Part shown: positions 283 through 26,068 of the stretch, in pieces
Layout of the letters: the number at the start of each line of letters is the position of its first letter
Numbering within the stretch: position 1 is the stretch's first letter
The notes under the pieces: model-generated
What the model saw: the letters and a program-made list of their open reading frames with translations, nothing else
Told to the model about the DNA's origin: nothing
Database searches by the model: none
Program-made: the position numbers and the translations under genes
DNA from: a virus
IMG/VR virus record: IMGVR_UViG_3300040856_001532
Coordinates: 1 to 27,491 of that record
Direction: 5' to 3' (one strand)
Length of the DNA: 27,491 nt

Positions 283-337
283 GTTATATCTATATAACTA
301 AATGTTATTTCAAAAACTCATTTATCTTCGTTAGTAT
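283..337 (+). promoter_or_regulatory. Promoter of the 364 gene with GTTAT/ATAAC element
   Basis: A 26-bp element at 283-308 has three half-sites: GTTAT, six bases, ATAAC, TAAAT, GTTAT. It ends 24 bp before the first base of a TAGTAT -10 box (332-337). The hexamer at the -35 position (TTCAAA, 309-314) matches TTGACA at only 4 of 6 bases. The start codon is 32 bp from the first base of the -10. The same arrangement occurs before the genes at 12331, 15512, 15829 and 26099. The position just upstream of a poor -35 suggests an activator site. Confidence 0.65.
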
Positions 338-363
338 CAAGCTATCAACTAATGGAGATAAAC

Positions 364-783
364 ATGAAACTTACACCTTTACTTTTAAGTCAAATCATTG
401 ACGAAAACGACATCGAAAACTTCCACGCTAACATTAGCGATGAAATGGTAATTCAAGTTAAGGCGGCTTATTCAATCGCAAACCAAAAACCAGCTAAGGA
501 TTCGCTAGTTATTAAGTGGCTTATCGATAAAGCTGAGTATTTCCAATTCTCATACAATCAATTTTTGGTTCGATATGACAATGAAGATAACAGTTATTAT
601 GATTGGTCTGAAACAGATGAAATGCTTGGTATGGCTTGGCACTATGCAATTGATTTAAAGTCAACGTCGGCAGGCTGGCACGCTCAAAGAACCAATAAAT
701 ATTTCACGCACATGAAAGCGTCAGTTGCGATTCTAGGTGTTATTAGCAAGCTAGATGAAGGTTATCATGCTTACGCCTCGTAA
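364..783 (+). CDS. Hypothetical phage protein, first gene of the pre-lysis operon
   Basis: I do not recognise this 139-residue soluble protein. It is acidic in its first half, rich in Y/W/F in the middle (residues about 60-105), and has no signal peptide or membrane segment. I chose ATG 364 over an in-frame ATG at 352 because the upstream ATG lies inside the probable Shine-Dalgarno sequence (TGGAGA, 353-358), which is spaced correctly for 364. It is the first gene after the promoter at 283-337 and overlaps the start of the next gene by 17 bp. Confidence 0.75.
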   Translation: MKLTPLLLSQIIDENDIENFHANISDEMVIQVKAAYSIANQKPAKDSLVIKWLIDKAEYFQFSYNQFLVRYDNEDNSYYDWSETDEMLGMAWHYAIDLKSTSAGWHAQRTNKYFTHMKASVAILGVISKLDEGYHAYAS

Positions 784-1162
784 CAAGCTTACAGATGAGC
801 AAAAGCGGGTTCTAGACCAGAATCCGCACCTACAAAGCGACAAGTTAGCAAAACTTATTGGTTTAAGTGTAAATACAGTTACAGGCTATAGAGGCAGAAA
901 TGGCGGCGTGAAATGGTCGTACAGTGGCGTAGGCATCCCGTTTTTTCACTTTGATAAATGGCAACACTCATCAAAGTGGCGAGTGAGATATAAAATGAAG
1001 CTTTTGTTTACTGGCTCTTTTGATAATGCGATAAAGGTTCAAGGTCAGCTTATTTGGATGCTTGAGAATGGTTTGAATCCATTTGAAGAAAAGCGAATTA
1101 GAAAGCCAGTTAAAACAATACTAGACCCTTTTGCGGATTTGGAATTTGGTGGTAAGCAATGA
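767..1162 (+). CDS. Small helix-turn-helix protein, probable phage DNA-binding regulator
   Basis: The product has 131 residues. Residues about 9-46 (TDEQKRVLD...SDKLAKLIGLSVNTVTGY) have the spacing of a helix-turn-helix: a short helix, then LAKLIGLS, then a recognition-like helix VNTVTGYRGR. The rest has many basic and aromatic residues and matches nothing I know. I prefer ATG 767 (Shine-Dalgarno GAAGG at 757-761) over the in-frame ATG at 755. The gene overlaps its upstream neighbour by 17 bp and the next gene by 4 bp (ATGA), so the three are translationally coupled. DNA binding is an inference from the motif; the target is unknown. Confidence 0.65.
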   Translation: MLTPRNKLTDEQKRVLDQNPHLQSDKLAKLIGLSVNTVTGYRGRNGGVKWSYSGVGIPFFHFDKWQHSSKWRVRYKMKLLFTGSFDNAIKVQGQLIWMLENGLNPFEEKRIRKPVKTILDPFADLEFGGKQ

Positions 1163-1446
1163 GTGATAGAAATAAAAACATCGAGCTTGCTTTAAAACTG
1201 AACATTGAAAGTGGCAAGTCAATCAAAGAAATCTCTGAAATGACAGGTTGCAGCACTTACAAGATCAAAGCAGAAAGGAAAAGGCTAGGCCTTACTGGCC
1301 CTTACAGACAGATAAAAGCTAATGAACTAAAACTTTTAATGTCTGATATGCCAATCAAAGAGGTTGCAAAAAGTCTAAATATGACAGGCGAACACGCATC
1401 TCAGTATAGGTATAGATACAAAAAGAAAATAAGGATTGAAGCGTAG
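1159..1446 (+). CDS. Double helix-turn-helix small protein, candidate phage transcription regulator
   Basis: This basic 95-residue protein contains two tandem helix-turn-helix-like segments: residues about 18-45 (GKSIKEISEMTGCSTYKIKAE) and about 58-88 (MPIKEVAKSLNMTGEHASQYR). Both share the IKE[IV]-X2-hydrophobic-X2-[TN][GM] pattern, so the protein may be an internal duplication. Two recognition helices in one short chain would suit binding to repeated half-sites, such as the GTTAT/ATAAC elements of this phage, but no data link them. It overlaps 767-1162 by 4 bp and ends on the first base of the next start codon. Confidence 0.7.
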   Translation: MSDRNKNIELALKLNIESGKSIKEISEMTGCSTYKIKAERKRLGLTGPYRQIKANELKLLMSDMPIKEVAKSLNMTGEHASQYRYRYKKKIRIEA

Positions 1447-1700
1447 TGAATTACTTAAATGACCAGGCAGACTTAATTGATAGTCTAGTGTTGAAAATGC
1501 ACGCACCGCTCAATTGCGGCGAGATGCACGTGTTGCGAAAAAACACACTAGACTTTACTAAGCGCGCAAGATATGAGCACTCTAAAAGATGCGAGTTATT
1601 GCGCAAGATTAGAACCGCGCAAAATACAAATAACGAGGCGCTAGAGCTTGAGCTTTTGCGCCAACTAGCAAAATTGGAGAATGACAATGTTAACACTTGA
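1446..1700 (+). CDS. Hypothetical small charged protein
   Basis: An 84-residue product starting at GTG 1446, directly overlapping the preceding TAG. It is charged, with a probably helical C-terminal half (residues about 40-80, many K/R/E/L) that may form a coiled coil. No known domain is apparent. Evidence that it is real comes from tight packing: it overlaps the next ORF (ATG 1687) by 14 bp, and the AAGGA at 1431-1435 is a possible ribosome binding site. Confidence 0.55.
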   Translation: MNYLNDQADLIDSLVLKMHAPLNCGEMHVLRKNTLDFTKRARYEHSKRCELLRKIRTAQNTNNEALELELLRQLAKLENDNVNT

Positions 1701-1833
1701 GCAAAAGGCAGCACGCCATAGATTGATTAAATCAATTGTAAATAGACGCAACAAAGAGAAAGCTGCCAGAAACTTGGAGCGCCGCAGAAATGCGGAGGAT
1801 GTGCTTTATTTAAAAGAGCGAGGAGTTGAGTAA
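1687..1833 (+). CDS. Hypothetical 48-residue basic protein
   Basis: The frame from ATG 1687 to TAA 1833 encodes a very basic, helix-prone peptide (about a third K or R, e.g. VNRRNKEKAARNLERRRN). GGAG at 1676-1679 precedes it as a ribosome binding site. Its stop overlaps the endolysin start codon (TAATG), so it is coupled to the lysis genes. The function is unknown. Its position directly upstream of the endolysin and its charge are the only clues. Confidence 0.55.
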   Translation: MLTLEQKAARHRLIKSIVNRRNKEKAARNLERRRNAEDVLYLKERGVE

Positions 1834-2225
1834 TGAGTAACTTTAAGTTTGGTCAAGCAAGTCTAAATAGACTGCAATCAGTTGATGAGCGATTGCAGAA
1901 GATAGCAAGTCTCGCCCTATCAATAAGCAAGGTTGACTTTGGTATACCATCAAGCGGCGGACTTAGAACCGCGGATGAGCAAAACAGACTTTACCATAAC
2001 GGAAAATCTCAATTGGATGGTTACAAGAGAAAAAGTTTTCATCAAACAGGTAAGGCGTTAGATGTTTACGCTTTTGTAAATGACAAGGCAAGTTGGGAGC
2101 GCGAGCATTTAGCTATGGTAGCTTGCGCAATGCTTCAAGCTGCATCTACTCTTGGTTATAAACTTGAATGGGGCGGTCACTGGCGTAATTTTGTTGATAT
2201 GCCGCATTTTGAGTTGAGTGACTGA
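1833..2225 (+). CDS. Endolysin: M15-family L-alanyl-D-glutamate-type peptidase
   Basis: This 130-residue protein matches the single-domain phage M15 peptidases that cut the peptide cross-bridge of peptidoglycan to release virions. The zinc-binding signature SFHQTGKALDVYAF (residues 68-81) supplies H70 and D77, and WGGHW...DMPHFEL (113-128) supplies the third ligand H125 with D122 as the likely catalytic acid. R45 in SGGLRTADEQ is the conserved arginine region. There is no signal peptide, so export depends on a holin, which fits the membrane proteins that follow. GGAG (1822-1825) is the ribosome binding site. Confidence 0.9.
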   Translation: MSNFKFGQASLNRLQSVDERLQKIASLALSISKVDFGIPSSGGLRTADEQNRLYHNGKSQLDGYKRKSFHQTGKALDVYAFVNDKASWEREHLAMVACAMLQAASTLGYKLEWGGHWRNFVDMPHFELSD

Positions 2226-2409
2226 TATGACAGCCCATATAGACAACCAAGAGCAAGAGACAGAGCAGTGCGAGTGTAACCCGCATGACTCGCACGCTCT
2301 TGTTAAAGAAAATATCAATCTAAGAAAGAAGATAACTGAGCTTAATTTTTACTGCTTTGTTATGTTCTTTTTATTATCAATCGCAGTAATAGCGAGGTTA
2401 ACGCAATGA
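2218..2409 (+). CDS. Small membrane protein of the lysis cassette
   Basis: A 63-residue product with an acidic, cysteine-containing N-terminus (ECEC at about 18), a short charged helix (residues 29-42) and one C-terminal hydrophobic segment (about 43-60). Starts are possible at GTG 2218 or ATG 2227; neither has a strong Shine-Dalgarno sequence. It overlaps the endolysin stop and the next gene (ATGA at 2406-2409). A role as antiholin, pinholin or spanin partner is possible from position and topology only. Confidence 0.6.
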   Translation: MTDMTAHIDNQEQETEQCECNPHDSHALVKENINLRKKITELNFYCFVMFFLLSIAVIARLTQ

Positions 2410-2789
2410 GTTTATTGGCAGGAATAAAAGCAATTTTCACTGGCGGATTTTTCAGTACAGTTGAAAACATAGCCACCGAAATGATTGAGACTAAAAAGGA
2501 GTCAGCAGAGGCTCAAACTCTAATGTTGAAAGTGCTAGACCCTAACGGAATCATGCGCCGCCAGTTAAGTAGATGTGTAACTTTCTTTTATGGAGTTTAT
2601 CTTTTTACCATGCTCGGTTTGTTAGTTTGTGAGTTTTTCGGATTCGTACCAAGTGGTCAAACTCCCGAACAAGTTGCCGCAGTTACGCAAAAGCTTGGCG
2701 ATTTGTTTGCGCCAATAACCACGGCTTTCGGCATGATTATCGGCGCAAGTTTTGGTGTTAACTTTTACAATGTAAAGAAAGGTAATTAG
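2406..2789 (+). CDS. Holin-like membrane protein (3TM / gene-transfer-release holin type)
   Basis: The product has 127 residues with an amphipathic N-terminal region (1-45), the stretch DPNGIMRRQLSR (45-56), then hydrophobic segments at about 56-80 and 100-121 and a basic tail (VKKGN). This order resembles the family of small holins first named for gene transfer agents. It would form the inner-membrane hole that gives the M15 endolysin access to peptidoglycan. Its place two genes after the endolysin supports this. The family call is from memory of its general pattern. Confidence 0.65.
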   Translation: MSLLAGIKAIFTGGFFSTVENIATEMIETKKESAEAQTLMLKVLDPNGIMRRQLSRCVTFFYGVYLFTMLGLLVCEFFGFVPSGQTPEQVAAVTQKLGDLFAPITTAFGMIIGASFGVNFYNVKKGN

Positions 2790-2795
2790 CAGGCA

Positions 2796-2855
2796 ATGAA
2801 TTACCGCTTTGGCTCTACAATTGGGAGCAAGTTAAAAGATTGGATTAAAAAATAA
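2796..2855 (+). CDS. Possible 19-residue basic peptide
   Basis: The frame ATG 2796 to TAA 2855 encodes MNYRFGSTIGSKLKDWIKK. Only a weak AGCAGG ribosome binding site precedes it. It lies 6 bp after the holin gene, and its stop runs into the stem of the hairpin at 2855-2874. It may be a non-coding stretch. Confidence 0.25.
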   Translation: MNYRFGSTIGSKLKDWIKK

Positions 2856-2874
2856 AGCGCTCATACAGAGCGCT
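2855..2874 (+). other. Hairpin between two micro-ORFs
   Basis: AGCGCTC, loop ATACA, GAGCGCT forms a 7-bp GC-rich stem. No T-run follows (AAGGATTAATTATG comes next), so it is not a standard terminator. It may protect the 3' end of the lysis mRNA or modulate translation of the 2886 ORF, whose ribosome binding site (AAGGA) begins right after the stem. Confidence 0.5.
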
Positions 2875-2885
2875 AAGGATTAATT

Positions 2886-2978
2886 ATGATTAACTTTATT
2901 CAAGTGTTAATAATTTTATTTTTGTGCGTTGGCTTCCCTGCTTACTGTGTTTATTTGCATTTTAAGCATCATTACTAA
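2886..2978 (+). CDS. Possible 30-residue single-span membrane peptide
   Basis: ATG 2886 to TAA 2976-2978 encodes a peptide with one strongly hydrophobic stretch (FIQVLIILFLCVGFPAYCVY) and a basic, histidine-rich end (HFKHHY). AAGGA, 8 bp upstream, is a fair ribosome binding site. It is the last rightward gene before the convergent tailspike gene. A small-peptide role in lysis timing or exclusion is conceivable but not shown. Confidence 0.45.
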   Translation: MINFIQVLIILFLCVGFPAYCVYLHFKHHY

Positions 2979-3017
2979 ATGCAGTGTTACTGTTAACACA
3001 ATCTACCTGATATAAAC

Positions 3018-5462
3018 TTAATAGTATTCCACTATGACAAAACCAACATCTTGCACTAACGCGTTGCCGCCATCGGCCCACACTCTTACACGCCTTTTGT
3101 TTGCATCTGCACCAGCATCAATCATGAGATTATCAACAACAAATGAATGGTCATTCTTTTGCTCATCCGTGGTTGATTGTCCGTAAATCACAGCTTTGTC
3201 GTTACTACCAACCTTTAGCGTGTATTGTGACGATGACAAACCAGAAGGCGGTCTATAAACTGTTATTTTATTCAAAATTGCACCTTCTGGAAGCACAACG
3301 GATTGCTCATTACCACCGTTATACGGCCAACCAAGTCTATTTTGTATCGCAGATACAGTTTTAGCTACACTGCTGTAAGCACCTCTACCGTTGTTAGTAA
3401 AGTTAACATCAAAGTCCGTTGCGTAATTAGGAGAGTCACCAGATCCTGTGGTGTCTGCAAAGATTAACTCTCTAGCACGTATCGCACCGTAATTGTTATT
3501 TACAGTACATCGACTGGATAAATCAGATACATCCTTGCATTTCTCGAATTCTATCAGACCATTTTGAGCTGTGGATGAGCTGGAGCCTGTAACTACATAG
3601 CTAAACTCTTGCGGTAACTCACAGTTTTTAAGCCGAACAACCTGTGAAGCGTTTAGGGTTACAGCATCCCTGGCACCACCAACAGTGGTGGTTAAGTTTG
3701 AATCGCAAAACTTAACCACAATCGATACAATCCCCGTATTATTTCCAGCGTAAAGTTTTTTCTGGTTTGTCTTTAACTCTGTCTTAATACCTAAAAATAA
3801 AAAGTCTTGATTGCCTGTACCCAGTCCAGAACCCGACGTTGAATTTCTGACTACTGCGCCCAATTTATCTGGTATAGTGCCGTAAGTTGATAGTATTATA
3901 CTGCCTCCGAACCACTTAACACTGCCACCACCAGTACTAACGCGTACAACATCACCTAAAATAGTCTCCGCCTCAGTCGAGACATATTCGTGGTTTACTG
4001 ATTGTGGATTATCTAGTTCTAATACAGAATCACCTATATTCGTGAACTTACAGCAAAGCCACTTATACTCACTGTTACCAGCCGTTCCAGATGCCTTGTT
4101 AACCTTATTAACAAATTCGATTCTACAATCTGAGAATGTAGCACCTTGTTCGTGACCTGTTCCATATGCGTTGTAAAAGTTGCCGTTTGCTATACTGTCA
4201 GAGCCAAAGCAAATACCTTCAACTCGCTGAAACTGATATCGCTGTGTTACACCATTTTGATAGAACCACTTTTCAACACCCTCTGTTACCAGCATAAAGT
4301 AAGTTGACTTATTTCTACCACCTTGCCCAGTGAGCTTGTACCCTCTTAGTCCAGAGGCGCTTCCAGAGTATGACAGTATTGCACTTTCGGTGAAATTGTA
4401 TTGTCCGAACCCAGCGACCAATGCTTTACCTGCTCCATCCAAAAACGCATCCACAGCAAGCTTGTATGGCGCGCTGTTGTCCGTACCAGAAACAACTCTT
4501 GTACCATCTTCCGATTCACTAGTAATAGCGCCGTCAGATATGCAACCAAAATCATCAATCCAGAGGCCATTTAAAGATATTGCTCGCAGTCCGTTAGCTA
4601 ATAGCAAACCCTTTGAGCCTGATACAACTTTCCAAGTTATAGCACCAGTTGAGTACTTATTGCCCTCCACAGGCAATGGGTAGCTTTGAAAATCTTGTAC
4701 TGTGTCGAATATTTTCTGGTCTTTCAGTACAACTTTTAATTTTAATCCTGCACTTAGTGGTATATATACACCACCGGTATCTGATTCCAAAACGATGAGG
4801 TGTAGAGCATTATCTCTATCCGTTAGCCTTACATACTGTCCAACCTCTAAAGCAGATGCCTGAGCCTCTGCAAGCGTGTAATATCCTGCTCGCTTCCTCA
4901 GTGCATCTTCAACGTTGCCATTTTCTGCGTAGCTAATATTCGACGCTTGATTAAATGTAACTTGCGTATAGGTTGGGGCGCTTGGCGTTGTCGCAGCAGG
5001 CACAGTAAAAGGTAAAGCTTCAACATCAGTGTAAATCCAAGCATTGCCGCTCGCGTCCAACCCAACATCGTTAGGCAATTCATAAGTAAAGCCAGCGGCA
5101 AAAGTACCTTTCACTCTAAATCCGCGAGAAGTGGATAAATCTAAAATAATTTGATTTACAGTTTCGTCAATTCGACTGTTGAAGTAATCAGCTCCGACAA
5201 CAGTAATCGGTGTAATTTGACCTGCATACTCCGCATTATAATCGCCAGCTTCAACAAAGAATGTAAACTGACCTTTTGAGTTTGTTACGTTGGATAGCCC
5301 GTCTTGAGCAATTTGCGAAGTGCCTGCTAGGTCACGATAAATACTTGCAAGTGTGCCGTTGGTTTTTTTGATGTAAACTGGCTGATTGTTTACATAGTTT
5401 TTGCCATTATTTCCAGCGTCAGTTAGCGCGCCTATGGTTATAGTAAATGATTGTAATGCCAT
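3018..5462 (-). CDS. Tailspike / tail fibre with pectate-lyase-type beta-helix
   Basis: An 814-residue protein, last of the leftward structural operon, 3 bp after the tail-hub gene. Residues 1-120 form a leading domain rich in beta-strand that probably attaches it to the tail tip. Residues about 302-345 (WIDDFGCISDGA...DNSAPYKLAVDAFLDG) match the start of the phage tailspike beta-helix fold, whose hallmark is [DV]-FGA-X-GDG followed by D-[ST]-X-A...A. A long strand-turn-rich segment (to about 700) fits the solenoid, and the end may be a small jelly-roll domain. Such proteins bind and often cleave surface polysaccharide. Active-site residues cannot be assigned by eye. Confidence 0.75.
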   Translation of the reverse strand: MALQSFTITIGALTDAGNNGKNYVNNQPVYIKKTNGTLASIYRDLAGTSQIAQDGLSNVTNSKGQFTFFVEAGDYNAEYAGQITPITVVGADYFNSRIDETVNQIILDLSTSRGFRVKGTFAAGFTYELPNDVGLDASGNAWIYTDVEALPFTVPAATTPSAPTYTQVTFNQASNISYAENGNVEDALRKRAGYYTLAEAQASALEVGQYVRLTDRDNALHLIVLESDTGGVYIPLSAGLKLKVVLKDQKIFDTVQDFQSYPLPVEGNKYSTGAITWKVVSGSKGLLLANGLRAISLNGLWIDDFGCISDGAITSESEDGTRVVSGTDNSAPYKLAVDAFLDGAGKALVAGFGQYNFTESAILSYSGSASGLRGYKLTGQGGRNKSTYFMLVTEGVEKWFYQNGVTQRYQFQRVEGICFGSDSIANGNFYNAYGTGHEQGATFSDCRIEFVNKVNKASGTAGNSEYKWLCCKFTNIGDSVLELDNPQSVNHEYVSTEAETILGDVVRVSTGGGSVKWFGGSIILSTYGTIPDKLGAVVRNSTSGSGLGTGNQDFLFLGIKTELKTNQKKLYAGNNTGIVSIVVKFCDSNLTTTVGGARDAVTLNASQVVRLKNCELPQEFSYVVTGSSSSTAQNGLIEFEKCKDVSDLSSRCTVNNNYGAIRARELIFADTTGSGDSPNYATDFDVNFTNNGRGAYSSVAKTVSAIQNRLGWPYNGGNEQSVVLPEGAILNKITVYRPPSGLSSSQYTLKVGSNDKAVIYGQSTTDEQKNDHSFVVDNLMIDAGADANKRRVRVWADGGNALVQDVGFVIVEYY

Positions 5463-5465
5463 GTT

Positions 5466-12248: not shown

Positions 12249-12303
12249 GTTATATGCTTATAGCTAAATGTTATTTAGATTTATTGGTGCTAGGTGATAT
12301 GTT
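12249..12303 (+). promoter_or_regulatory. Moron promoter with GTTAT/ATAGC element
   Basis: The 26-bp element at 12249-12274 reads GTTAT, six bases, ATAGC, TAAAT, GTTAT. It ends 24 bp before a TATGTT -10 box (12298-12303), the same spacing as at 283-337, with a poor -35 (TTAGAT, 12275-12280). The gene starts 33 bp after the first -10 base. It transcribes rightward against the structural operon. Confidence 0.6.
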
Positions 12304-12330: not shown

Positions 12331-12516
12331 ATGATCGGGTTTATTTTATCTTGTTTATGGGTTATAGGTGCAAGCTTAGCTAATCACTATCTATACAATG
12401 ATGCTGCTTTAGGCGTTATGTTTTGGCCTGCAATAATGGTTAACGGTATGGTTTGTGGTTTATTGTATTTGGGTTTTAACGGCCTAAAAGTGTTTGAGTG
12501 TAAAGAAGCCCCATAA
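12331..12516 (+). CDS. Moron: 61-residue two-span membrane protein
   Basis: A rightward gene inserted in the leftward tail operon between the tube and G genes. The product has hydrophobic segments at about 2-20 and 28-48, with a short charged tail (FECKEAP). AATGGAGAG, 8 bp upstream of ATG, is the ribosome binding site. The last codons (GAA GCC CCA TAA) form the left arm of its own terminator. Small membrane proteins with private promoters in phage structural operons are often superinfection-exclusion or host-altering morons; that function is inferred from context only. Confidence 0.75.
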   Translation: MIGFILSCLWVIGASLANHYLYNDAALGVMFWPAIMVNGMVCGLLYLGFNGLKVFECKEAP

Positions 12517-13705: not shown

Positions 13706-14185
13706 TTATAGAATTTCCTCGTAGTAGCCGTTGACATTAACGTCAACTCTGTAAAATTTTGAATCTGTTAATTTACCAACAACATCAATAGTTGCTGTTT
13801 GTGTTTTGTACTCGTTGATCTCAACTTTTTCAAAAATGTTAAGTATCTCTGATACGGTTGTCATTATATCAGCTCTAGCAACTCTGTCAGAATTTGGAAC
13901 GTTTACCGAAACCGTGTGAACAAAGTATTGCCTAATGCATCGCCTTGTGTCGGCCGCTGTTTGTTGTCTTAAACCTAAAGCTGTCGATTGAATCAAGTGT
14001 TTTTTAGACTTTGTTGATTCAACGCCTCGATCAAGGTTTGCAACATCATCAACCGAATAACCGTCAGGCAAGTTGTTAGCAAGCCTTAACTGCATCGTTC
14101 TTGTTAAGCCTTTCGCATAGCTAACCCCATGCACATTGCTATCTATGAGTAAGTCTTGACCATTTGAAATAAACAGTGTTGTCAT
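13706..14185 (-). CDS. Probable tail terminator protein
   Basis: A 159-residue protein between the gp10-like connector and the tail tube, where siphoviruses place the ring protein that ends tube growth. It begins with a short strand, followed by mixed alpha/beta sequence with a helix at about 100-117 (RADIMTTVSEILNIFEKV) and paired strands near the end (YKTQTATIDVVGKL; FYRVDVNVNGYYEEIL). That ending resembles tail terminator folds. It overlaps the upstream gene by 4 bp and ends 1 bp before the tube start. Identity comes from gene order. Confidence 0.55.
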   Translation of the reverse strand: MTTLFISNGQDLLIDSNVHGVSYAKGLTRTMQLRLANNLPDGYSVDDVANLDRGVESTKSKKHLIQSTALGLRQQTAADTRRCIRQYFVHTVSVNVPNSDRVARADIMTTVSEILNIFEKVEINEYKTQTATIDVVGKLTDSKFYRVDVNVNGYYEEIL

Positions 14186-15428: not shown

Positions 15429-15483
15429 GATTATAGCTTATAGCTAAAGGTTATTAAACATTCAAATGATTATGGGCTATATT
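15429..15483 (+). promoter_or_regulatory. Moron promoter with ATAGC/GTTAT element
   Basis: The element ATAGCTAAAGGTTAT at 15440-15454, with an imperfect upstream half, ends 24 bp before a TATATT -10 box (15478-15483). The -35 position reads TAAACA. The start codon of the 15512 gene lies 34 bp after the first -10 base. It is back-to-back with the leftward connector promoter and uses the same element. Confidence 0.6.
15430..15465 (-). promoter_or_regulatory. Leftward promoter of the connector operon with operator inside
   Basis: On the minus strand, -35 TTGAAT (15465-15460) and -10 TATAAG (15442-15437) are separated by 17 bp. The 15-bp element ATAACCTTTAGCTAT (15454-15440) fills the spacer and overlaps the -10. 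A second -10 (TATAAT, 15435-15430) lies downstream. The same layout is found before the scaffold gene (22083-22117), which suggests repression of leftward transcription. Confidence 0.55.
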
Positions 15484-15511: not shown

Positions 15512-15715
15512 ATGAAAATTAAAATACTTTTACAGTCTTTAGCATTAACTGCTTTTTGCCTTTGGATGATTAGTAAGGCTTTTGAGCTTTTAGAATTTCA
15601 CGGAATGTTTCCGCTGTTAACTGCATTGATGGCTATTGCGGTAGTGTTTCTCTGTGGCGTTGCAGTTATTGACAGTCAAATAGACCATCAAGCTAATGAA
15701 AAAAGCCCCGATTAA
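15512..15715 (+). CDS. Moron: 67-residue two-span membrane protein
   Basis: ATG 15512 is preceded by TGGAGA with good spacing; an in-frame GTG at 15500 lies inside that ribosome binding site. The product has hydrophobic segments at about 5-23 and 33-53 and a charged end (IDSQIDHQANEKSPD). Its last codons (AAA AGC CCC GAT TAA) build the left arm and loop of its terminator. It resembles the 12331 moron in size, topology and organisation but not in sequence. A role in exclusion or membrane physiology is inferred only. Confidence 0.75.
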   Translation: MKIKILLQSLALTAFCLWMISKAFELLEFHGMFPLLTALMAIAVVFLCGVAVIDSQIDHQANEKSPD

Positions 15716-15754: not shown

Positions 15755-15798
15755 ATAACCGAGTTTATCTTTATTTAAACTAAAACGTAGTGTAGTAT
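15755..15798 (+). promoter_or_regulatory. Promoter of the Rha-T5orf172 gene with degenerate element
   Basis: ATAAC at 15755-15759 and the partial half-site TTATC at 15765-15769 sit in the same register as in the other promoters: ATAAC starts 38 bp, and the element ends 24 bp, before the first base of the TAGTAT -10 (15793-15798). The -35 hexamer is TTTATT. The gene start is 36 bp after the first -10 base. Confidence 0.5.
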
Positions 15799-15828
15799 TA
15801 AGTTGTAATTAAATTGGAGATACCAAAC

Positions 15829-16635
15829 ATGCAACTTGCAGCTTTAGAAAATAGAATCTCATCTATAGATGTTTATAGGCTTTTTGGCTATAAAGAGCAC
15901 AGAAACTTAAAAGAAATTATAAGCAAACACATTGACGACTTTAATAAGGTTGGAGAGCTTAGGGTCTCAACCGTGCCGTGCGGTAACAAAGGTGGCAGAC
16001 CATCAGAGGTGTACTTGTTAACATTAGGGCAAGCCCTTTTACTATCTGGTCTGGTTAAAAACTCGTCAAAATCAAATAAAGCAGACATATTAACCACCCT
16101 AGTTAATGCCTATGAAAATTCATCATTAACAGCCGCTTTAGAAATTATAAAAAACATTGATATTGAAGATGATATTGCCGATAGGTATGTTTATGTTGCC
16201 AAAGAGTCTGAATCTGGCAGATATAAAATAGGCATTAGTAGCAACCCAGAAAAGCGCATTAAGCAGTTGAATACTGGAAACCCAGAGAGGCTAGTACTTG
16301 TTCACGCATACCTTGCCAGTGAGAGCGGTTATAAATCTGAATTGTTAGCACACAAAACCTATGAGAAGAACAGGTTGAGCGGTGAGTGGTTTGATTCATC
16401 AATAGACATATCACTATTGCCAAGCTATGCCGCTAAATGTACGTTAAGCGCTGAAAAGCCTTACTGTGAATGTCTAGACTGCGATAACCACTCAAAAGCA
16501 TTTGATATTCTTGATGGTAAGGTTGGTAGTAGAGATAGTCACATCGGATTGCTCATAGATAGAGGTTTTGAGTTTAGCGATGCTGCAAAGTCGGTTGATG
16601 CACTCTTTGATAATGGCGTAATAGATATACAATAA
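15829..16635 (+). CDS. Rha-like phage regulator fused to a T5orf172 (GIY-YIG-type) domain
   Basis: A 268-residue two-domain protein. Residues 1-100 resemble the Rha family (VYRLFGYKEHRNLKEII; GRPSEVYLLTLGQALLL; ILTTLVNAYE), whose founding member acts in phage regulation. Residues about 118-192 match the T5orf172/MUG113 domain of the GIY-YIG superfamily (RYVYVAKESESGRYKIGIS; EKRIKQLNTGNPERL; GEWFD). A cysteine cluster CECLDC (213-218) precedes a final helical region. ATG 15829 follows TGGAGA; a TTG at 15814 lies within that site. The gene is a rightward cassette in the leftward head operon with its own promoter and terminator. Nuclease activity is not certain. Confidence 0.75.
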   Translation: MQLAALENRISSIDVYRLFGYKEHRNLKEIISKHIDDFNKVGELRVSTVPCGNKGGRPSEVYLLTLGQALLLSGLVKNSSKSNKADILTTLVNAYENSSLTAALEIIKNIDIEDDIADRYVYVAKESESGRYKIGISSNPEKRIKQLNTGNPERLVLVHAYLASESGYKSELLAHKTYEKNRLSGEWFDSSIDISLLPSYAAKCTLSAEKPYCECLDCDNHSKAFDILDGKVGSRDSHIGLLIDRGFEFSDAAKSVDALFDNGVIDIQ

Positions 16636-20132: not shown

Positions 20133-20134
20133 AA

Positions 20135-20305: not shown

Positions 20306-20322
20306 AATTTAATATCCTGTAT

Positions 20323-20351
20323 AAAAAAGCCCTAGTTTTTAGCTAGGGCTT
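20323..20351 (-). terminator. Strong terminator after the major capsid gene
   Basis: Minus strand AAGCCCTAG, 7-base loop, CTAGGGCTT followed by TTTTTAT. The 9-bp perfect stem plus T-run is the clearest terminator of the leftward operon. It could make capsid mRNA more abundant than the downstream fibre and tail messages. Confidence 0.85.
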
Positions 20352-20390
20352 AAAGTGGTTTAATCTAAAAACCCGTTAAAAATCAATAGC

Positions 20391-21401
20391 TTAGCCATTG
20401 GTTTTCAAAAACCTCACTGGGCAGTTCTTAGCGTCCCAAACTCGATCCCAATTAGCCGCCGCCTGTAACTCTGCATAAGTTGCAGATTGACCAGCAACAC
20501 TACCACCAGCAAAAGTGAAGCCCACAGGCATGATGATATCTGTACGGCGTGAGTAAAGCAGAGTTTCACCGCCACCGTTACCAGCGCCAGGATTGCGATC
20601 TAATTCAGAGGCTAGAGTATTAGGCATATTACCCTCACCAGCTTGAACCGCGCCAGCACCAAACAGGATTGATGTGTAAGTTGGGCGGTTAGTGCCAACA
20701 ACTACACTTAAGGCATCATCAACAACTACGCGCTTACCTTGGAAAGTGGCGAAGCTTGAATCTTCTGAATCCTGAATGAAGTCAATCAGGTTTAGAGCGT
20801 ATAAGCCGTAGTAAACGCTTGAATGGATACCGAATGCGCTGATTAAGTCTAAGTTATCACCAGTTAGCTCAAGAGCTTTGATAAAGTTTAGAGCGCTTGC
20901 TTTTTCAGCGTCAGTGATTGCACCCGCCGCATCAGTTGCAACATTGTGAACTAAATCGCCACCGTCATTTGCTTCATTGTCTGCAAGTACACCCATGAAA
21001 GAGTGAATTAGGCGTTTCTGGTTATCTGTAGCCCAGTAATCACCGATGCGATTAGTGATACCTGTCATTGGATCTTGTAGCGCGATGCCGCGAGCTAAGT
21101 CCATAGCAGACCATGCTTTTGCACGTGCCGCTTTGCGGTATTTCATTTGTTGAGTGCCAAGCTTAGCAGGAACAATAATATCTGTAGGCACATCGTTAGT
21201 GTATGTTGGCTCATCGGTCGTTAGTGGCTTGATGTTATCAATCTCACCAGTAAAGCCAGACATAGAGCACATCATTGAAAGTTCAGCGTTTGGAGCTTGC
21301 ACCCCTGATTGGATAAATGCGTTTTTCTCAACTTGACGCTCTTGCGCCATAGTTGTGAATTGAAGCGGATCATAAATATCTGCAATTTGAATTGTAGCCA
21401 T
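20391..21401 (-). CDS. Major capsid protein
   Basis: The 336-residue product follows a coiled-coil scaffold gene and precedes a strong terminator. Its sequence has the character of a phage coat subunit: a helical N-arm (DPLQFTTMAQERQVEKNAFIQSG), a beta segment (TNDVPTDIIVPAKLGTQQMKYRKAARAKAWSAMDLARGIALQDPM), a long helix (WATDNQKRLIHSFMGVLAD), a FGIHSSVYYGLYALN...QGKRVVVDDAL core and a C-terminal SRRTDIIMPVGF strand. FQGKRVVVDDAL is a recurrent pattern in HK97-fold coats. I cannot place it in a precise subfamily. Spacing to scaffold: 3 bp. Confidence 0.8.
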   Translation of the reverse strand: MATIQIADIYDPLQFTTMAQERQVEKNAFIQSGVQAPNAELSMMCSMSGFTGEIDNIKPLTTDEPTYTNDVPTDIIVPAKLGTQQMKYRKAARAKAWSAMDLARGIALQDPMTGITNRIGDYWATDNQKRLIHSFMGVLADNEANDGGDLVHNVATDAAGAITDAEKASALNFIKALELTGDNLDLISAFGIHSSVYYGLYALNLIDFIQDSEDSSFATFQGKRVVVDDALSVVVGTNRPTYTSILFGAGAVQAGEGNMPNTLASELDRNPGAGNGGGETLLYSRRTDIIMPVGFTFAGGSVAGQSATYAELQAAANWDRVWDAKNCPVRFLKTNG

Positions 21402-21404
21402 CTT

Positions 21405-22031
21405 TTAGCCCTTTAATTGATCTAAGTAATTATCAGTAACAGAGCTTCGTTTTTTAGTAACGGAACTCGGATTTAAATTTGCGGTATCAACCCCGCTTGC
21501 TTTTGACCCTGCCAAGTGATTTTGCATATCAGGGTCAGACTTAGCCCATTTCAACCAATCATCATGGTTATCAGCTATATGCTTGCCGTCTAGGTCTTTA
21601 TAGCTTGCGACTACGCTACCGTCTTCACCAAAGCCATAATCAACTAATTGACTCGCCGTTAACTGACTGAGCTTATCGTTTTTAGCAAAGTTAGAAACGA
21701 TGCTTTGAACAGAAGCTTGCTTTTTAGATGAAAGAATCATTTCGTTACGTGCGTTTAATTGCTCAGATAACTCTTTGCGTTCACGCTCGTATTTAGCTTG
21801 CTCAAGCTCCAAAGCCTTTTTAACATCACCAGCCTCTTTTGCTGCCTCAATTGCCGCTTGCTCTTTTTCCAATAACTTAGCTTGCGTTTCTTCTTCTAGC
21901 TTTTTCTTTTCTGCTAGTAGCGCATCTTTATTGGCTTTTAAGCCTGCGGTTTCAGCTTCAAATTTGGCTTTAAGCTCTTGCTCTTGCTTAGCTAGCAGTT
22001 CTTTCAATTGCTCTTCTGTGTACTCTGCCAT
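21405..22031 (-). CDS. Capsid scaffolding protein
   Basis: A 208-residue protein whose first 110 residues are one long charged coiled coil (ELLAKQEQELKAKFEAETAGLKANKDALLAEKKKLEEE), followed by a compact end with DYGFGEDGSVVASYKDLDG (about 132-150) and a DDWLKWAKSDPDMQNHL helix (156-172). This is the typical layout of phage scaffolds, which guide coat assembly and leave before packaging. Position directly before the capsid gene agrees. AGGAG lies 8 bp before the ATG. The promoter at 22083-22117 should drive it. Confidence 0.85.
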   Translation of the reverse strand: MAEYTEEQLKELLAKQEQELKAKFEAETAGLKANKDALLAEKKKLEEETQAKLLEKEQAAIEAAKEAGDVKKALELEQAKYERERKELSEQLNARNEMILSSKKQASVQSIVSNFAKNDKLSQLTASQLVDYGFGEDGSVVASYKDLDGKHIADNHDDWLKWAKSDPDMQNHLAGSKASGVDTANLNPSSVTKKRSSVTDNYLDQLKG

Positions 22032-22082
22032 TTGATAATCTCCTGATTAAAATGGTTGTAGCCCTGCTACTGGTTAATAATT

Positions 22083-22117
22083 GTTATAATGATATAACTA
22101 AAGGTTATAAGCGTCAA
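22083..22117 (-). promoter_or_regulatory. Leftward scaffold/capsid promoter with embedded GTTAT/ATAAC operator
   Basis: Minus strand: -35 TTGACG (22117-22112), 17-bp spacer, -10 TATCAT (22094-22089), each 5 of 6 to consensus. The complete element (GTTAT-N6-ATAAC-N5-GTTAT, 22083-22108) covers the spacer, the -10 and the start-site region. A protein bound here would block RNA polymerase. Confidence 0.65.
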
Positions 22118-22124
22118 ACTATCG

Positions 22125-23228
22125 TCAGATATAACCTTTTAAAAATTCATTCTTGTTCATGTATTCAAGTATTTTCTGATTCTTCTGCGCCATTTCTGCG
22201 AGCGTTAGAGGCTCACCCATGCGATTGGCTAAAGCATCTCTAAATTCTTGCGCGCTTAATCCTGCGTTGCGGAATATCAAGCCGCGAGATTTACCAAGGA
22301 CTTCATCTTGCACGTAAGCAGGTTGTCTTTTCAGCACATCATAATATTGCTTAGTTGCGTCAACTTGGCCTTTTTCATCTTCAAAGTTAGCCGATCGTGT
22401 CGAGCCTGTGCGGTTTAGCTTGTCATTGTAAAACTCTGCTGTGATTTGTGACCTACAGCGATAATGAAAGGCCGGTTTAGGATTATAACTATCAGAGTAT
22501 TTAAAAGTCTTGCCGTCAAAATATCGACACGTTTCAGATGTTCGAGTATCTAAAGTGGCTAAGATTGTATAGCCCCAGATAATATCGTCGTTCTGTCTGA
22601 ATATTTCATCACGTGAAGTTGATGCAATATGAGTTACCGCAGTTCTAACGATTGTTTCAGCTTCACGCCTAGAAGCATCAATAATCCCATCGGTATACTT
22701 TTGCGCCCTGGTACCAATAATGGTTTGAGTCATTTCTTGAAGTGTTAAGCCCTGAGAAAAGCCGCCAGATATTACACTAGCCACTTTGCGACTATTATCG
22801 CCTAACCTCTCTATCATTTCGTCAAAATCAACGAATGAGTTATTGCCGCCAATGGCTAAGGGGTTTTTAGTTACTGCCGCCCATAGCTTTCTATTTGATG
22901 GTGACTCGACAATAACGTCAGCGACTACAGAGGTTTGAATTGCTTGCGTTATAAATTCAGCTTCATCGGCGGATAGTGCTTTAAACTGCTCATAGTAAAG
23001 CGCTGTGATATCTTCATACACTTGTGCTGTCTTTGTCTCTACATCATCTAATAACTTCTGATAGCGCTTTCTAGATGCAATGGTAGCACCTTCGCGATTA
23101 ATACGCTCACGTAGCCATTTAGCAAGCTCTTGAAGCGCTTCGGTTGTTTGCTTGTTTAATGATGAAGCAAAGCGTTGGTCTAATATGCTTCGATTTGTTA
23201 ATGCTGCAAAAAGCTCTGGACTCTGCAT
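22125..23228 (-). CDS. Mu F-like minor head protein
   Basis: A 367-residue protein of the Mu gpF / SPP1 gp7 head morphogenesis family, which binds the portal or scaffold inside the procapsid. The N-terminal half is helical. The signature region is residues about 155-265: RREAETIVRTAVTHIASTSR, then LATLDTRTSETCRYFDGK (224-240), then PKPAFHYRCRSQITAEF (250-266). I chose ATG 23228; a longer TTG start at 23258 would place the terminator hairpin 23230-23256 inside the gene. The only ribosome-binding match is AGGG about 9 bp upstream. A portal gene is usually adjacent, but none is here. Confidence 0.85.
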   Translation of the reverse strand: MQSPELFAALTNRSILDQRFASSLNKQTTEALQELAKWLRERINREGATIASRKRYQKLLDDVETKTAQVYEDITALYYEQFKALSADEAEFITQAIQTSVVADVIVESPSNRKLWAAVTKNPLAIGGNNSFVDFDEMIERLGDNSRKVASVISGGFSQGLTLQEMTQTIIGTRAQKYTDGIIDASRREAETIVRTAVTHIASTSRDEIFRQNDDIIWGYTILATLDTRTSETCRYFDGKTFKYSDSYNPKPAFHYRCRSQITAEFYNDKLNRTGSTRSANFEDEKGQVDATKQYYDVLKRQPAYVQDEVLGKSRGLIFRNAGLSAQEFRDALANRMGEPLTLAEMAQKNQKILEYMNKNEFLKGYI

Positions 23229-23229
23229 G

Positions 23230-23256
23230 AAAAAATGCCCTAATTTGATATAGGGC
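23230..23256 (-). terminator. Terminator or attenuator directly before the minor head gene
   Basis: Minus strand GCCCTA, 8-base loop, TAGGGC followed by ATTTTTTC, then the ATG of the next gene. It probably ends the 24530-23292 transcript, allowing partial read-through into the head gene. Confidence 0.7.
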
Positions 23257-23291
23257 AATTATAGCATGGTGGGGAATTGGGGCAATTAAGG

Positions 23292-23735
23292 TTAGCTTTT
23301 ACCGAAATCAGCAATAACAACTTTAGAGTCTGATTTTGATGCCATGTAATCACTCATTTGATTAAACCTTTTAGTCATACCCTTATTTATTCTGTGAAAC
23401 ATTGCAATTGATAAGAAAAGTGCCGCCGCTGCCAAATACTGTTGAGAGAAAACCAATAAGACTAAAGATGCCACCCTTACAGGTATAACCACAAATTTTT
23501 GATAATTGGTAATCTCACCGTTGAAACTAGTTAGAAGTTTGTCTTTCAAGTAAAAAGACTTGTCGCTTTCTTGATCAAATTCAAAAGCTAGGTAGACGCA
23601 ATAAGCGCCAGCAATAGAAATTAGTACAAGCAATGAGAATGCGTATGCTGAATAAAGCTCAAGCAGCCCTTCATTGTCATAGTAAATTCCAATTATTAGC
23701 GCTGCAAACATTGCCAAGTTAAATACTTTAATCAT
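23292..23735 (-). CDS. Hypothetical four-span membrane protein
   Basis: A 147-residue protein with hydrophobic segments at about 3-18, 29-52, 82-97 and 99-114, separated by a charged loop (EFDQESDKSFYLKDKLL). The C-terminus (RINKGMTKRFNQMSDYMASKSDSK) is basic and soluble. CTGGAGAGTAG precedes the ATG. It is not a known virion part. Its position between the HNH nuclease and head genes suggests an accessory membrane function such as lysis control or exclusion, which is inference. Confidence 0.65.
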   Translation of the reverse strand: MIKVFNLAMFAALIIGIYYDNEGLLELYSAYAFSLLVLISIAGAYCVYLAFEFDQESDKSFYLKDKLLTSFNGEITNYQKFVVIPVRVASLVLLVFSQQYLAAAALFLSIAMFHRINKGMTKRFNQMSDYMASKSDSKVVIADFGKS

Positions 23736-23753
23736 TTTCTACTCTCCAGTTAA

Positions 23754-23975
23754 TTAAAAGTGTTCTTCGCTGTTTTTTGCCTGCGCATCTTTTTGGATGA
23801 TTAGTCCAACTGCATGCGCGTAAACCGCTGCCGCTGCTGCATTTGCCGCAACTGACATAGCGCCTAGCTTACTAATATTGTCAATGACCGTATTATTCAT
23901 GGCTATCTCAGCCTCTAAAACTGCTATATAGGCGTCTTTTGAAAGTTTACCTTTTAACATTTCGCTTTTAATCAT
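23754..23975 (-). CDS. Hypothetical small alanine-rich protein
   Basis: A 73-residue product with a charged helical first half and an alanine-rich, moderately hydrophobic segment (MSVAANAAAAAVYAHAVGLII, about 40-60) that could be a weak membrane span or buried helix. TTGGAGTAG precedes the ATG in the same form as for the following gene, and both genes begin with MIK, so they look co-inherited. Function unknown. Confidence 0.6.
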   Translation of the reverse strand: MIKSEMLKGKLSKDAYIAVLEAEIAMNNTVIDNISKLGAMSVAANAAAAAVYAHAVGLIIQKDAQAKNSEEHF

Positions 23976-24023
23976 TTTCTACTCCAAATTTAAACAATAA
24001 GTGTCATTAGATACGTTAGTGCA

Positions 24024-24530
24024 TCAAGGTCGCCAATCTGTTTGCCATTGATTGATCTTGCCAACATTGCAATCCTCACAAAGTATTTGCAGATTTTCAA
24101 TATCAAGCGCAAGCTCTGGGCTTGTTGATTTTGGTTTAATGTGATCAACGTGCATAACCAAGCCGTCAGATGGAGTTGCACCGCAGCAAGCGCATTTATT
24201 GCCGTACCGCTCAAAAGCCTGATACCGCAATATCTTCCACGCTCTACTGCTGTAAAAATCTTTCTTTGTCCTGCATTTAAACTTAGGCTTATCGTCAAGC
24301 TTTCTAACCTTGCCAGCAAGCACTTTTATCTGAGTGTGTGGATGAACGTCACCTCTAACAGTTAAACCAAGCTTTGCAGATGTGACAACAGCAAGCTCAA
24401 GAGCTGAATAATTGCCACCAATACCGCAAAATGATTTGAGCAACTTAATATCATCATTAAAAGCCTGTTTATTTTTGAGTCTGCGCTCTTGGTTGCGCTT
24501 CACTCTCTCTGCTTTCGTTAATTTACCCAT
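24024..24530 (-). CDS. HNH endonuclease
   Basis: The 168-residue protein has a basic N-terminus (residues 1-30), a middle of unknown role and a C-terminal HNH domain: zinc cysteines C113/C116 (CACC) and C151/C154 (CEDC), the catalytic HVDHIKP (127-133) and N146 in ENLQIL. FYSSRAWKILRYQAFERYG (92-110) is the usual lead-in helix. Such nucleases in phage head modules often help terminase cut DNA during packaging. Here terminase is not adjacent, so a free-standing role is also possible. It is the first leftward gene after the control region, with GAGGGG before the ATG. Confidence 0.9.
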   Translation of the reverse strand: MGKLTKAERVKRNQERRLKNKQAFNDDIKLLKSFCGIGGNYSALELAVVTSAKLGLTVRGDVHPHTQIKVLAGKVRKLDDKPKFKCRTKKDFYSSRAWKILRYQAFERYGNKCACCGATPSDGLVMHVDHIKPKSTSPELALDIENLQILCEDCNVGKINQWQTDWRP

Positions 24531-24640
24531 TTTTACCCCTCTTACTTATCATCTAGGAAATAATTGGCTAATACTCTCCTTAAAGCCGTTATGAAACAGC
24601 CTTAGAAGATAACCAATCTCATCATCTGAGGTTATGGCTA

Positions 24641-24665
24641 AGCTATAAAGTACAGGTTTATAGCT
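24641..24665. repeat. Perfect 9-bp inverted repeat, operator-like
   Basis: AGCTATAAA, spacer GTACAGG, TTTATAGCT. It lies about 110 bp upstream of the HNH start codon. The ATAGCT core recalls the ATAGCTAAA form of the promoter elements. It may be a repressor site for the leftward operon or a small RNA hairpin. Confidence 0.5.
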
Positions 24666-24891
24666 CAATAGTGTTTACGTGTCTGTCACGCCCTAGCACT
24701 GCACACTATCAATTAATAATCACAATGGGAAACCGAATGAAACGCCAATTTAGGTTTTGCTTTATATGAATATTAACTCAACTCTCACAGCTCCGCTTTG
24801 CTAGGTATCAGCTAACGGATTTATCAAGGTAATGGCTCAGTTACAGTTTGCCCCGACATCACCAGGACAAGCAAAGGTAGGATTATAGAAA

Positions 24892-24998
24892 TAAAAAAGC
24901 GCTTACAGATGGCCTCTGGTCTGAGGGACAAATATTAAAAACCCTCGAAGCCACGTGTAAACGCTCTACTATTTGTTTTTAAGCCGACCAAAGCTTGT
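24892..24998 (-). ncRNA. Candidate structured small RNA of about 105 nt
   Basis: A minus-strand TATAAT at 25010-25005, with TTTGCA 17 bp upstream, predicts a start near 24998. The transcript would fold into a coaxial hairpin: stem 1 pairs 24956-24965 with 24898-24907 (10 bp, one wobble), stem 2 pairs 24947-24954 with 24909-24916 (8 bp, two wobbles), stem 3 pairs 24942-24946 with 24923-24927 (5 bp). Six unpaired bases (AGACCA) remain on one side. The upstream TTTGGTC (24992-24986) can pair with GACCAGA there, giving a possible pseudoknot. A run of six T follows stem 1 as terminator. I match it to no known RNA family. Confidence 0.5.
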
Positions 24999-25004
24999 AA
25001 CTGA

Positions 25005-25033
25005 ATTATACACCACATAACCAACAGTGCAAA
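25005..25033 (-). promoter_or_regulatory. Leftward promoter of the candidate small RNA
   Basis: Perfect -10 TATAAT (25010-25005) on the minus strand, 17-bp spacer, -35 TTTGCA (25033-25028, 4 of 6). It is the best -10 in the control region and faces the structured RNA and the HNH/head genes. Confidence 0.5.
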
Positions 25034-25061
25034 CCTTAACCCAAACCCGATTAGATTATAA

Positions 25062-25076
25062 ATACCGTTTAGCTAT
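25062..25076 (-). promoter_or_regulatory. Variant GTTAT/ATAGC element in the control region
   Basis: The minus strand reads ATAGCTAAACGGTAT, 13 of 15 identical to the element at 15440-15454. It lacks a convincing -10 at the 24-bp distance. On the plus strand a TATACT box begins at its end (25076-25081), so it may act as an operator for rightward transcription. Confidence 0.4.
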
Positions 25077-25092
25077 ATACTTATGCTTATTT

Positions 25093-25145
25093 GTTATATA
25101 AATTAATAACAAAAGTGTTGCCATTAATCACAGGCTTGTTACTAT
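25093..25145 (+). promoter_or_regulatory. Rightward promoter of the 25187 gene
   Basis: -35 TTGCCA (25118-25123, 5 of 6) and -10 TACTAT (25140-25145) with a 16-bp spacer. The palindrome GTTAT-N8-ATAAC (25093-25110) lies just upstream. Unlike the other rightward promoters, this one has a good -35 and a longer leader (47 bp from the -10 to ATG), so it may work without the activator and act earliest. Confidence 0.45.
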
Positions 25146-25186
25146 AACCCCACTGAAACGAAATACTTAAACAACTGGAGATTATT

Positions 25187-25426
25187 ATGAAAACATTAAC
25201 TAAATTAATTAACGAGATTTCAGAAGCAATGGGAATGACAACTATTGATTTAATACGGTCGGTTAATTTTCACAATGAAATGAATGAGCACGACATTATT
25301 GAAACTGAAGATGAGATTCGTCAACACCTTCTTAAAATCTCTTACTATTCGAGAATGACAAAGTCTGGTGCTGCAAGATATTCGAAAGTTTGCTCTATCA
25401 ATGATAGTTACTTAAAGTCGCTATGA
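25187..25426 (+). CDS. Hypothetical early protein, first gene right of the control region
   Basis: The 79-residue product has a possible helical fold with a motif-like start (TKLINEISEAMGMTTIDLIRSV) that could be a weak helix-turn-helix, followed by an acidic patch (NEHDIIETEDEI) and a basic C-terminus. ACTGGAGA precedes the ATG. It overlaps the next gene by 4 bp (ATGA). As the promoter-proximal gene of the early cluster it is a candidate regulator, which is a guess from position. Confidence 0.65.
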   Translation: MKTLTKLINEISEAMGMTTIDLIRSVNFHNEMNEHDIIETEDEIRQHLLKISYYSRMTKSGAARYSKVCSINDSYLKSL

Positions 25427-25833
25427 GTCGTTACACATGGGGAGTCGATGCTAGCGGCAGATGCTCCCTAACTGAAAATTGCAAAGATATACTCATTTGC
25501 GGCATTAATGGTGTTAACGGGTATGCTTTGCGTGATTATTATGAGGGTTTTGAAATGGCTGGATTAAGCATGAAAGTTGAGGTGTCAGCAGTAGATTTGA
25601 AAGTTGTAAAAGATATATTGTTTCTACTTGAAAAATACAAAACCGAATTACCCGCACCCTTACTAAACCAACTTGAGGCGATACTAGATGAAAAAGCAAA
25701 GCCAACAGAAAGAGATCGCATGATTTCATTGGTTAACGATGTTGCGAATATTGGTGTTGATTTCGGTTATGGTGAGTTTTTTATAGACCAGAGCCATATC
25801 GAAAAAGCTAGAAACATAATAAAAGAAATTTAA
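25423..25833 (+). CDS. Hypothetical early protein
   Basis: A 136-residue soluble protein coupled to the previous gene by an ATGA overlap. Residues about 50-90 form charged helices (VSAVDLKVVKDILFLLEKYKTELPAPLLNQLEAIL), and the remainder has acidic and aromatic residues without a known motif. It precedes the small HTH-like gene at 25835. Confidence 0.65.
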   Translation: MSRYTWGVDASGRCSLTENCKDILICGINGVNGYALRDYYEGFEMAGLSMKVEVSAVDLKVVKDILFLLEKYKTELPAPLLNQLEAILDEKAKPTERDRMISLVNDVANIGVDFGYGEFFIDQSHIEKARNIIKEI

Positions 25834-25834
25834 A

Positions 25835-26011
25835 ATGAAAACACTTAAATCAATAACCGCCAAATACCGCAGCATGTACGCTGCGGCTAAGGCTTTAAAC
25901 GTATCAGCAATGCAACTAAAGCGCCTAGTAGATAAAGGCGCCCTAGTTGATGATGAGGGTAATGTTTACATCAAATCTACGACTAATGTTAACCTAAATA
26001 ACCATTCGTAA
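25835..26011 (+). CDS. Small HTH-like protein (58 residues), candidate regulator
   Basis: ATG 25835 to TAA 26009-26011. Residues about 13-46 (SMYAAAKALNVSAMQLKRLVDKGALVDDEGNVYI) have the helix, turn, recognition helix and short beta-wing pattern of excisionase/MerR-like or Cro-like DNA-binding proteins: YAAAKALNVS is the first pair and MQLKRLVDKGAL the recognition helix. The stop lies 2 bp before the promoter element at 26014, so the gene borders a site of the GTTAT family. DNA binding is inferred from pattern; the ribosome binding site is weak. Confidence 0.6.
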   Translation: MKTLKSITAKYRSMYAAAKALNVSAMQLKRLVDKGALVDDEGNVYIKSTTNVNLNNHS

Positions 26012-26013
26012 TT

Positions 26014-26068
26014 GTTATATGTATATTTCAATTTGTTATTTCACCGCAGCAAAATAATCCAATAGTAT
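26014..26068 (+). promoter_or_regulatory. Rightward promoter with GTTAT element before the 26099 gene
   Basis: The element at 26014-26039 keeps both outer GTTAT half-sites and 20 of 26 bases of the copy at 283-308, but the middle half-site is altered (ATTTC). TAGTAT (26063-26068) begins 24 bp after the element, with TTCACC at the -35. The gene start is 36 bp after the first -10 base. No terminator separates it from the preceding gene. Confidence 0.6.

Follow-up and report, generated by a model that had tools for sequence, protein, structure and literature searches.

A phased promoter element marks a predicted phage-wide regulon in Pseudoalteromonas siphophages

The viral contig analyzed here (IMG/VR record IMGVR_UViG_3300040856_001532; 27,491 bases, hereafter the window) is part of a siphophage akin to the Pseudoalteromonas phages H105/1, HS1, and HS5. 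It harbors several copies of a short element, element A, whose full form contains three half-sites (GTTAT-N6-ATAAC-N5-GTTAT) and which stands at a fixed distance upstream of a -10-like box. A first-pass annotation of the sequence had described a family of five such sites, all rightward. Four of them, at 283-308, 12249-12274, 15429-15454, and 26014-26039, are present as described, and at each the first base of the -10 box lies 24 positions past the last element base (i.e., with 23 nucleotides between). The family itself has to be redrawn: copies at 22083-22108 and, facing left, at 25062-25087 had been overlooked, and the proposed degenerate site at 15755-15769 (plus strand) is a non-element that scores -41 bits, with just its -10 box (TAGTAT, 15793-15798) in phase.

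The plus-strand copy at 283-308 is perfect, lies downstream of a terminator, and scores 34.2 bits with a matrix built from other phages. It is followed by the promoter of the lysis operon (352-2789), which spans 309-337 on the plus strand with a degraded -35 (TTCAAA, 309-314) and a -10 of TAGTAT (332-337); the phase is kept in relatives. The copy at 12249-12274 (plus strand, 38.1 bits) lies in the gap from which a leftward tail gene and an antisense gene (12331-12516) diverge, the latter with a plus-strand -10 of TATGTT (12298-12303), and it is found at the identical location in H105/1, HS1, and HS5. At 15429-15454 (plus strand, 20.4 bits), the first half-site is altered; this copy stands upstream of an antisense cassette (15512-15715), with a -10 of TATATT (15478-15483, plus strand) and a similar stretch in Pq0, H105/1, HS1, and HS5. 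The variant at 26014-26039 (plus strand, 14.9 bits), in which the middle half-site reads ATTTC, lies upstream of 26099-26341 with a -10 of TAGTAT (26063-26068, plus strand) and is in phase in clade relatives. On the minus strand, 25062-25087 (31.3 bits) precedes a -10 of TAAGGT (25033-25038) and an operon running from an HNH gene through head and tail genes (24530 to 3018), and corresponds to H105/1 9445+ (a trailing + or - gives the strand). The copy at 22083-22108 (plus strand, 27.7 bits), likewise with three perfect half-sites, has no gene behind it. Two relatives (L022 and L025) diverge right beyond the element, leaving the right flank variable, and this copy may be either the relic of a lost cassette or a cassette junction. 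The distance from the -10 box to the start codon, which had been given as always 32-36, holds in the window and is broader in relatives.

The working matrix comprises 26 positions, derives from dereplicated sites, and includes nothing downstream of the element. For a second matrix, 29 sites were taken from beyond the clade of this phage, so that the window and its near relatives were excluded from training. With the latter, the five best plus-strand scores in the window belong to 12249, 283, 22083, 15429, and 26014 (38.1-14.9 bits), followed by 4.8, while on the minus strand 25087 ranks first with 31.3 bits and the next score is 9.9. The leave-clade-out matrix therefore finds the sites of the window, with no other sequence comparable. 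Every site picked by the matrix is intergenic in a window that is 92% coding. In 200 first-order Markov simulations of the window, the best score with the working matrix averages 4.1 bits; 20 shuffled genomes yield no match above 13 bits, and the reversed pattern yields none. The first collection scan returned 102 matches, many of which lie within coding sequence of unrelated contigs (ATTTTGG...CTATAGCTAAACGTTAT) and were put aside. Six core strings of the elements have no occurrence in the literature searched.

Because the matrix covers nothing downstream of the element, the position of the -10 box is an independent test. In a sample of 54 sites, dereplicated at 70% identity over the 60 downstream bases, TAnnnT starts at an offset of 23 nucleotides after the element in 37, compared with an average of 1.3 sites at other offsets; when the window sites are removed, the fraction is 34/51. 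The 24-base-pair phase noted in the window is thus retained in related phages. Between the element and the -10 box, constraint falls mainly on the first bases, TT(A/C)ACA (TTMACA), at a 17-base-pair spacer from the -10. Across the 37 in-phase sites, the successive positions of this hexamer are T (36/37), T (32/37), A or C, A (23), C (20), and A (19). The -35, described in the first-pass annotation as poor or missing, is therefore weak or degraded rather than missing.

With the -10 box counted as -12 to -7, a numbering inferred from the box rather than from a mapped start, the conserved core ATARC-N5-GKTAT spans -50 to -36 and is centered at about -43. The upstream GTTAT half-site is more variable and lies one helical turn beyond the core. 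Some copies face both ways: on either side there is an in-phase -10 together with a third half-site (34974+/34989- in contig G019; 14803+/14818- in G005). A three-gene insert in the window appears to have split such a bidirectional pair into 25087- and 26014+. Elements trail a terminator in 8/37 cases versus 2.8% at random.

Element A is present in ten cultured Pseudoalteromonas siphophages (H105/1, HS1, HS5; Pq0, PHS21, SL25, PS_L5, PHS3, AL; and C7), which span at least three different structural modules, and in dozens of viral contigs. Every isolate with the element infects Pseudoalteromonas. Screening 84,980 bacterial and archaeal species genomes returned 7 matches, none of them in Pseudoalteromonas, and 369 further bacterial genomes gave none for the phased pattern. 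The element is thus phage-specific, none of the bacterial chromosomes scanned having yielded a convincing copy. Of note, in one T4-like contig (L092, L094) the TATAAT of a transfer RNA (tRNA)-Arg promoter is in phase with a perfect element A, a single case that may be due to chance.

The genes behind the element are diverse and lie on both strands. In HS5, copies stand upstream of the lysis operon (4591-), a unit at 13927+, a non-coding unit (15575+), the terminase operon (16967+), the methylase/portal operon (20766+), and antisense cassettes (27334-, 30570-). Pq0 has one copy upstream of tRNA-Met and tRNA-Gly, and C7 has a weak copy upstream of tRNA-Asn. Since lysis, packaging, portal, and structural operons, tRNAs, and cassettes all follow the element, the regulon is phage-wide and the antisense cassettes are one part of it. 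The earlier proposal of a single regulator for scattered morons was too narrow.

In a sub-class of elements, the -10 lies at offset 22 and is followed by a conserved non-coding stretch of 300-400 nucleotides that ends at an intrinsic terminator (L031 15575+, L170 32647-, L164 16451-, L165 20938-, L168 30200-, L169 22040-, and L191 383-). This stretch may possibly encode a small RNA. Pq0 (L030 14725-) has its two tRNA genes in the place of the non-coding stretch.

Directly past the leftward promoter of the window, a second, sigma70-like promoter pair (TTGCAC-16-TATAAT) lies at 25032-25005 on the minus strand, followed by about 470 nucleotides without a listed gene; similar TATAAT boxes trail the element in HS5, Pq0, and G019. 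Two possible mobile genes accompany the units described above, namely 15814-16635, located in an antisense cassette and encoding a product that has a GIY-YIG-like part, and 24024-24530, encoding the HNH nuclease that opens the leftward operon. A search of the window against Rfam gave no match.

The element A-negative relatives BS5 and HS2 harbor a different palindrome, ACTGGTCGGAGCAGT (element B), at the same architectural places, with TAnnnT 18 nucleotides downstream. This offset is found in 8/12 dereplicated sites, any other in at most 2. The phase-locked B pattern occurs in 55 viral stretches. Among inexact B copies in those loci, unselected for phase, offset 18 accounts for 17/73, and other offsets account for 1 to 7 each. 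The two elements were not found together: no fetched A locus has an exact B, and no B locus has A. Among phages infecting a single host genus, some use A, some B, and others neither. Six or more gene families head a unit behind A in one phage and behind B in another (e.g., PS_L5 13966 vs HS2 17829; PHS3 23266 vs HS2 8324; H105/1 16730 vs BS5 9408). The element tracks the phage rather than the gene, as would be expected if the regulator were resident and phage-specific.

Element A is best read as the site of a phage-encoded activator that recruits host RNA polymerase at TAnnnT promoters with a degraded -35, a reading given a probability of roughly 70%. The activator-type phage regulon put forward in the first-pass annotation is well supported by the phase across unrelated downstream sequences, the chromosome scans, a geometry like that of the Mu promoter Pm, and the second dialect. 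The activator would sit at about -61 to -36, activating rather than repressing, and would touch the polymerase through the C-terminal domain of the alpha subunit and/or sigma region 4, making up for the degraded -35. The dyad ATARC-N5-GKTAT would form the core of the site, the upstream GTTAT half-site would add affinity, and this half-site together with an asymmetric TAAAY spacer would set direction. The protein would thereby switch on the lysis, packaging, head/portal, and structural operons, the tRNAs, and the antisense cassettes, which are self-contained. Judged by gene content, the timing would probably be delayed-early or late. Phages of the HS2/BS5 type would use an equivalent scheme with ACTGGTCGGAGCAGT placed 18 nucleotides before TAnnnT. 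Cassettes moving between groups would be found behind the local element because each group runs its own site.

Several observations weigh against this reading. The nominal binomial figure for the phase, 4e-47, overstates the surprise because the 54 sites are related and not fully independent; the phase effect is unmistakable despite this relatedness. In a few elements, the -10 lies at offset 22 or no in-phase box is present. A late timing is also uncertain, because in HS2, a dialect B phage, the structural genes are late and 67% of genes are early (PMC7082346). When protein families were compared over 14 long element A genomes, with HS2, BS5, and Vibrio 1.291 as the element A-negative comparison, no DNA-binding family proved to be both present in every element A phage and restricted to them. 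Two families, phrog_27187 and phrog_38213, are universal in the 14 genomes and absent from the three comparison phages. The former, represented in the window by an 84-residue protein (1446-1700, plus strand), is present in Pq0 in truncated form and is absent from the more distant element A contigs G008, G011, and G021; its confident AlphaFold2 model is an all-helical hairpin lacking a DNA-binding fold.

The distribution of phrog_27187 still tracks element A best, with a displaced copy in C7 and another in the later-found contig G019, and the protein is retained as a candidate only. Its model has no match below 0.001 in the PDB, and it may simply be a lysis-operon gene. On paper, the 95-residue protein at 1159-1446 (plus strand) would be the better DNA binder and is a possible regulator. 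Its AlphaFold2 model is a tandem helix-turn-helix (HTH) with weak structural matches only. The family is not confined to element A phages: relatives occur in HS5 (gp33), G008 (16632), BS5, and HS2, and none was found in AL, C7, or PS_L5. This protein was one of three regulators proposed in the first-pass annotation, the others being 755-1162 and the product of 25835. None of the three is distributed like the element: most element-positive isolates lack these families, and those of 755-1162 and 25835 (as well as 1159-1446 with a wider profile) also occur in element-negative phages.

The second universal family, phrog_38213, was dropped as a regulator, since H103 and XCL1123 carry it without any element. 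Its members have 43-47 residues (CRxR...HxN...T....GW), and the gene end often overlaps the next element (L167 23815, L144 14863, L164 16437, and others). A small 65-residue HTH protein, phrog_5434, and phrog_16845 were likewise set aside, each being absent from some element A phages or present in B phages. Element A contigs without phrog_27187 encode a protein of 65-75 residues that reads as winged-helix-like from its sequence, in several cases taking the position of phrog_27187 before the endolysin gene (G008 6798, G001 1658, G011 5368, G021 12827, G022 7873, and G016 906).

The missing universal DNA-binding gene, together with the restriction of all element A isolates to Pseudoalteromonas hosts, would also fit a host protein, either a borrowed activator or a nucleoid protein. 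This is unlikely given that no matching site was found in Pseudoalteromonas or the other chromosomes scanned and that phages of one host genus use A, B, or neither; the exclusivity of A and B per locus fits a phage-carried regulator. Equally unlikely is a phage sigma-like or sigma-appropriating factor of the MotA/AsiA type that reads the element as a replacement -35. Element B does overlap the -35 position, and the -10 stays sigma70-like (TAnnnT) with both elements. However, element A stops before the -35 hexamer, which retains its TT and spacing, and no sigma or MotA match was found among the proteins searched, which did not include every protein.

Slightly less probable again is a repressor reading, in which a phage repressor of lysogeny or early genes would bind the elements as operators spread genome-wide, as in temperate phages with stoperator or multi-operator systems. 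Both palindromes are close to the core promoter, several of these phages encode a 60-residue XRE protein, and HS1-like phages have been termed likely able to integrate (PMC5498523). On the other hand, the -35 is degraded and its position is downstream of site A, and the scan of Pseudoalteromonas chromosomes, in which prophages would reside, turned up no copy. The XRE miniprotein was rejected as the element binder: its divergent promoter, the expected site of autoregulation, is without an element, so that the autoregulation via a shared operator that typifies a multi-operator repressor regulon is not seen, and it was not found in AL, PHS21, or C7, all of which have elements. Least probable are recombination junctions that aid cassette movement without a role in transcription, since the phase to the -10 is conserved when the intervening sequence is not and cassettes bear the local dialect rather than their own, even though the flanks of 22083 switch in relatives exactly at the element and elements stand at cassette borders, often after a terminator.

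Taking the phage-encoded activator as the preferred reading, it is tentatively proposed, at odds somewhat short of even, that marine siphophages form regulatory compatibility groups, each with its own activator and a phased element that all dispersed units must share. Cassettes crossing between groups would come under the local element, and A and B would be two of several dialects served by an undescribed activator family. Promoter dialect may thus be both a barrier to and a rule for accessory-gene exchange between phages. For a phage group of ecological importance, with no other promoter mapping in the literature searched, the elements define a genome-wide regulon that can be tested, and they provide two precise sequence handles for finding the activators. 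Published time-course transcriptomes exist for HS2 (dialect B), and HS1 and HS5 (dialect A) are isolated phages; the prediction can therefore be tested with existing material.

Among known systems, the closest geometry is that of Mu Mor/C (Pm, Plys, PI, PP, and Pmom; PF08765), in which a dyad lies directly upstream of the -10 with no or a poor -35 and several phage promoters are under one activator, as proposed for element A. Pm lacks a -35 and is bound by the Mor dimer at -51 to -36, centered at -43.5 (PMC4287176), compared with -50 to -36 for the core of element A in the numbering inferred from the -10 box. In contrast to Mu, element A phages have no Mor/C homologue (0/20 phages), three half-sites, two exclusive dialects, and a regulon that includes antisense cassettes and tRNAs. 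P2 Ogr and P4 Delta likewise serve a small set of dispersed late promoters through a palindromic site and a phage activator, the latter being proposed for element A. Their site is TGT-N12-ACA (PMC3931495), unlike ATARC-N5-GKTAT or ACTGGTCGGAGCAGT, and the element A regulon has more units, on both strands. No Ogr-type zinc-finger activator (CX2CX22CX4C) was identified, although no dedicated search of all proteins was made.

At T4 MotA/AsiA middle promoters, an element stands in for the -35 and the -10 is that of sigma70. The MotA box is short, non-palindromic, and near -30, whereas the dyad of element A is larger and lies further upstream; no search was aimed at MotA homologues. Lambdoid morons are small self-contained transcription units between late genes, often with their own promoter and terminator. 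Such units and upstream terminators were seen in part among the cassettes described here, yet a single phased element is common to their promoters and to those of the phage's own operons, which places them in the phage-wide regulon. From the sequence comparisons made, elements A and B mark a promoter regulon that is real, phased, and specific to phages and that has two or more mutually exclusive dialects. By the tests made, this regulon belongs to neither Mor/C nor Ogr and is akin to the activator-controlled phage regulons that these exemplify.

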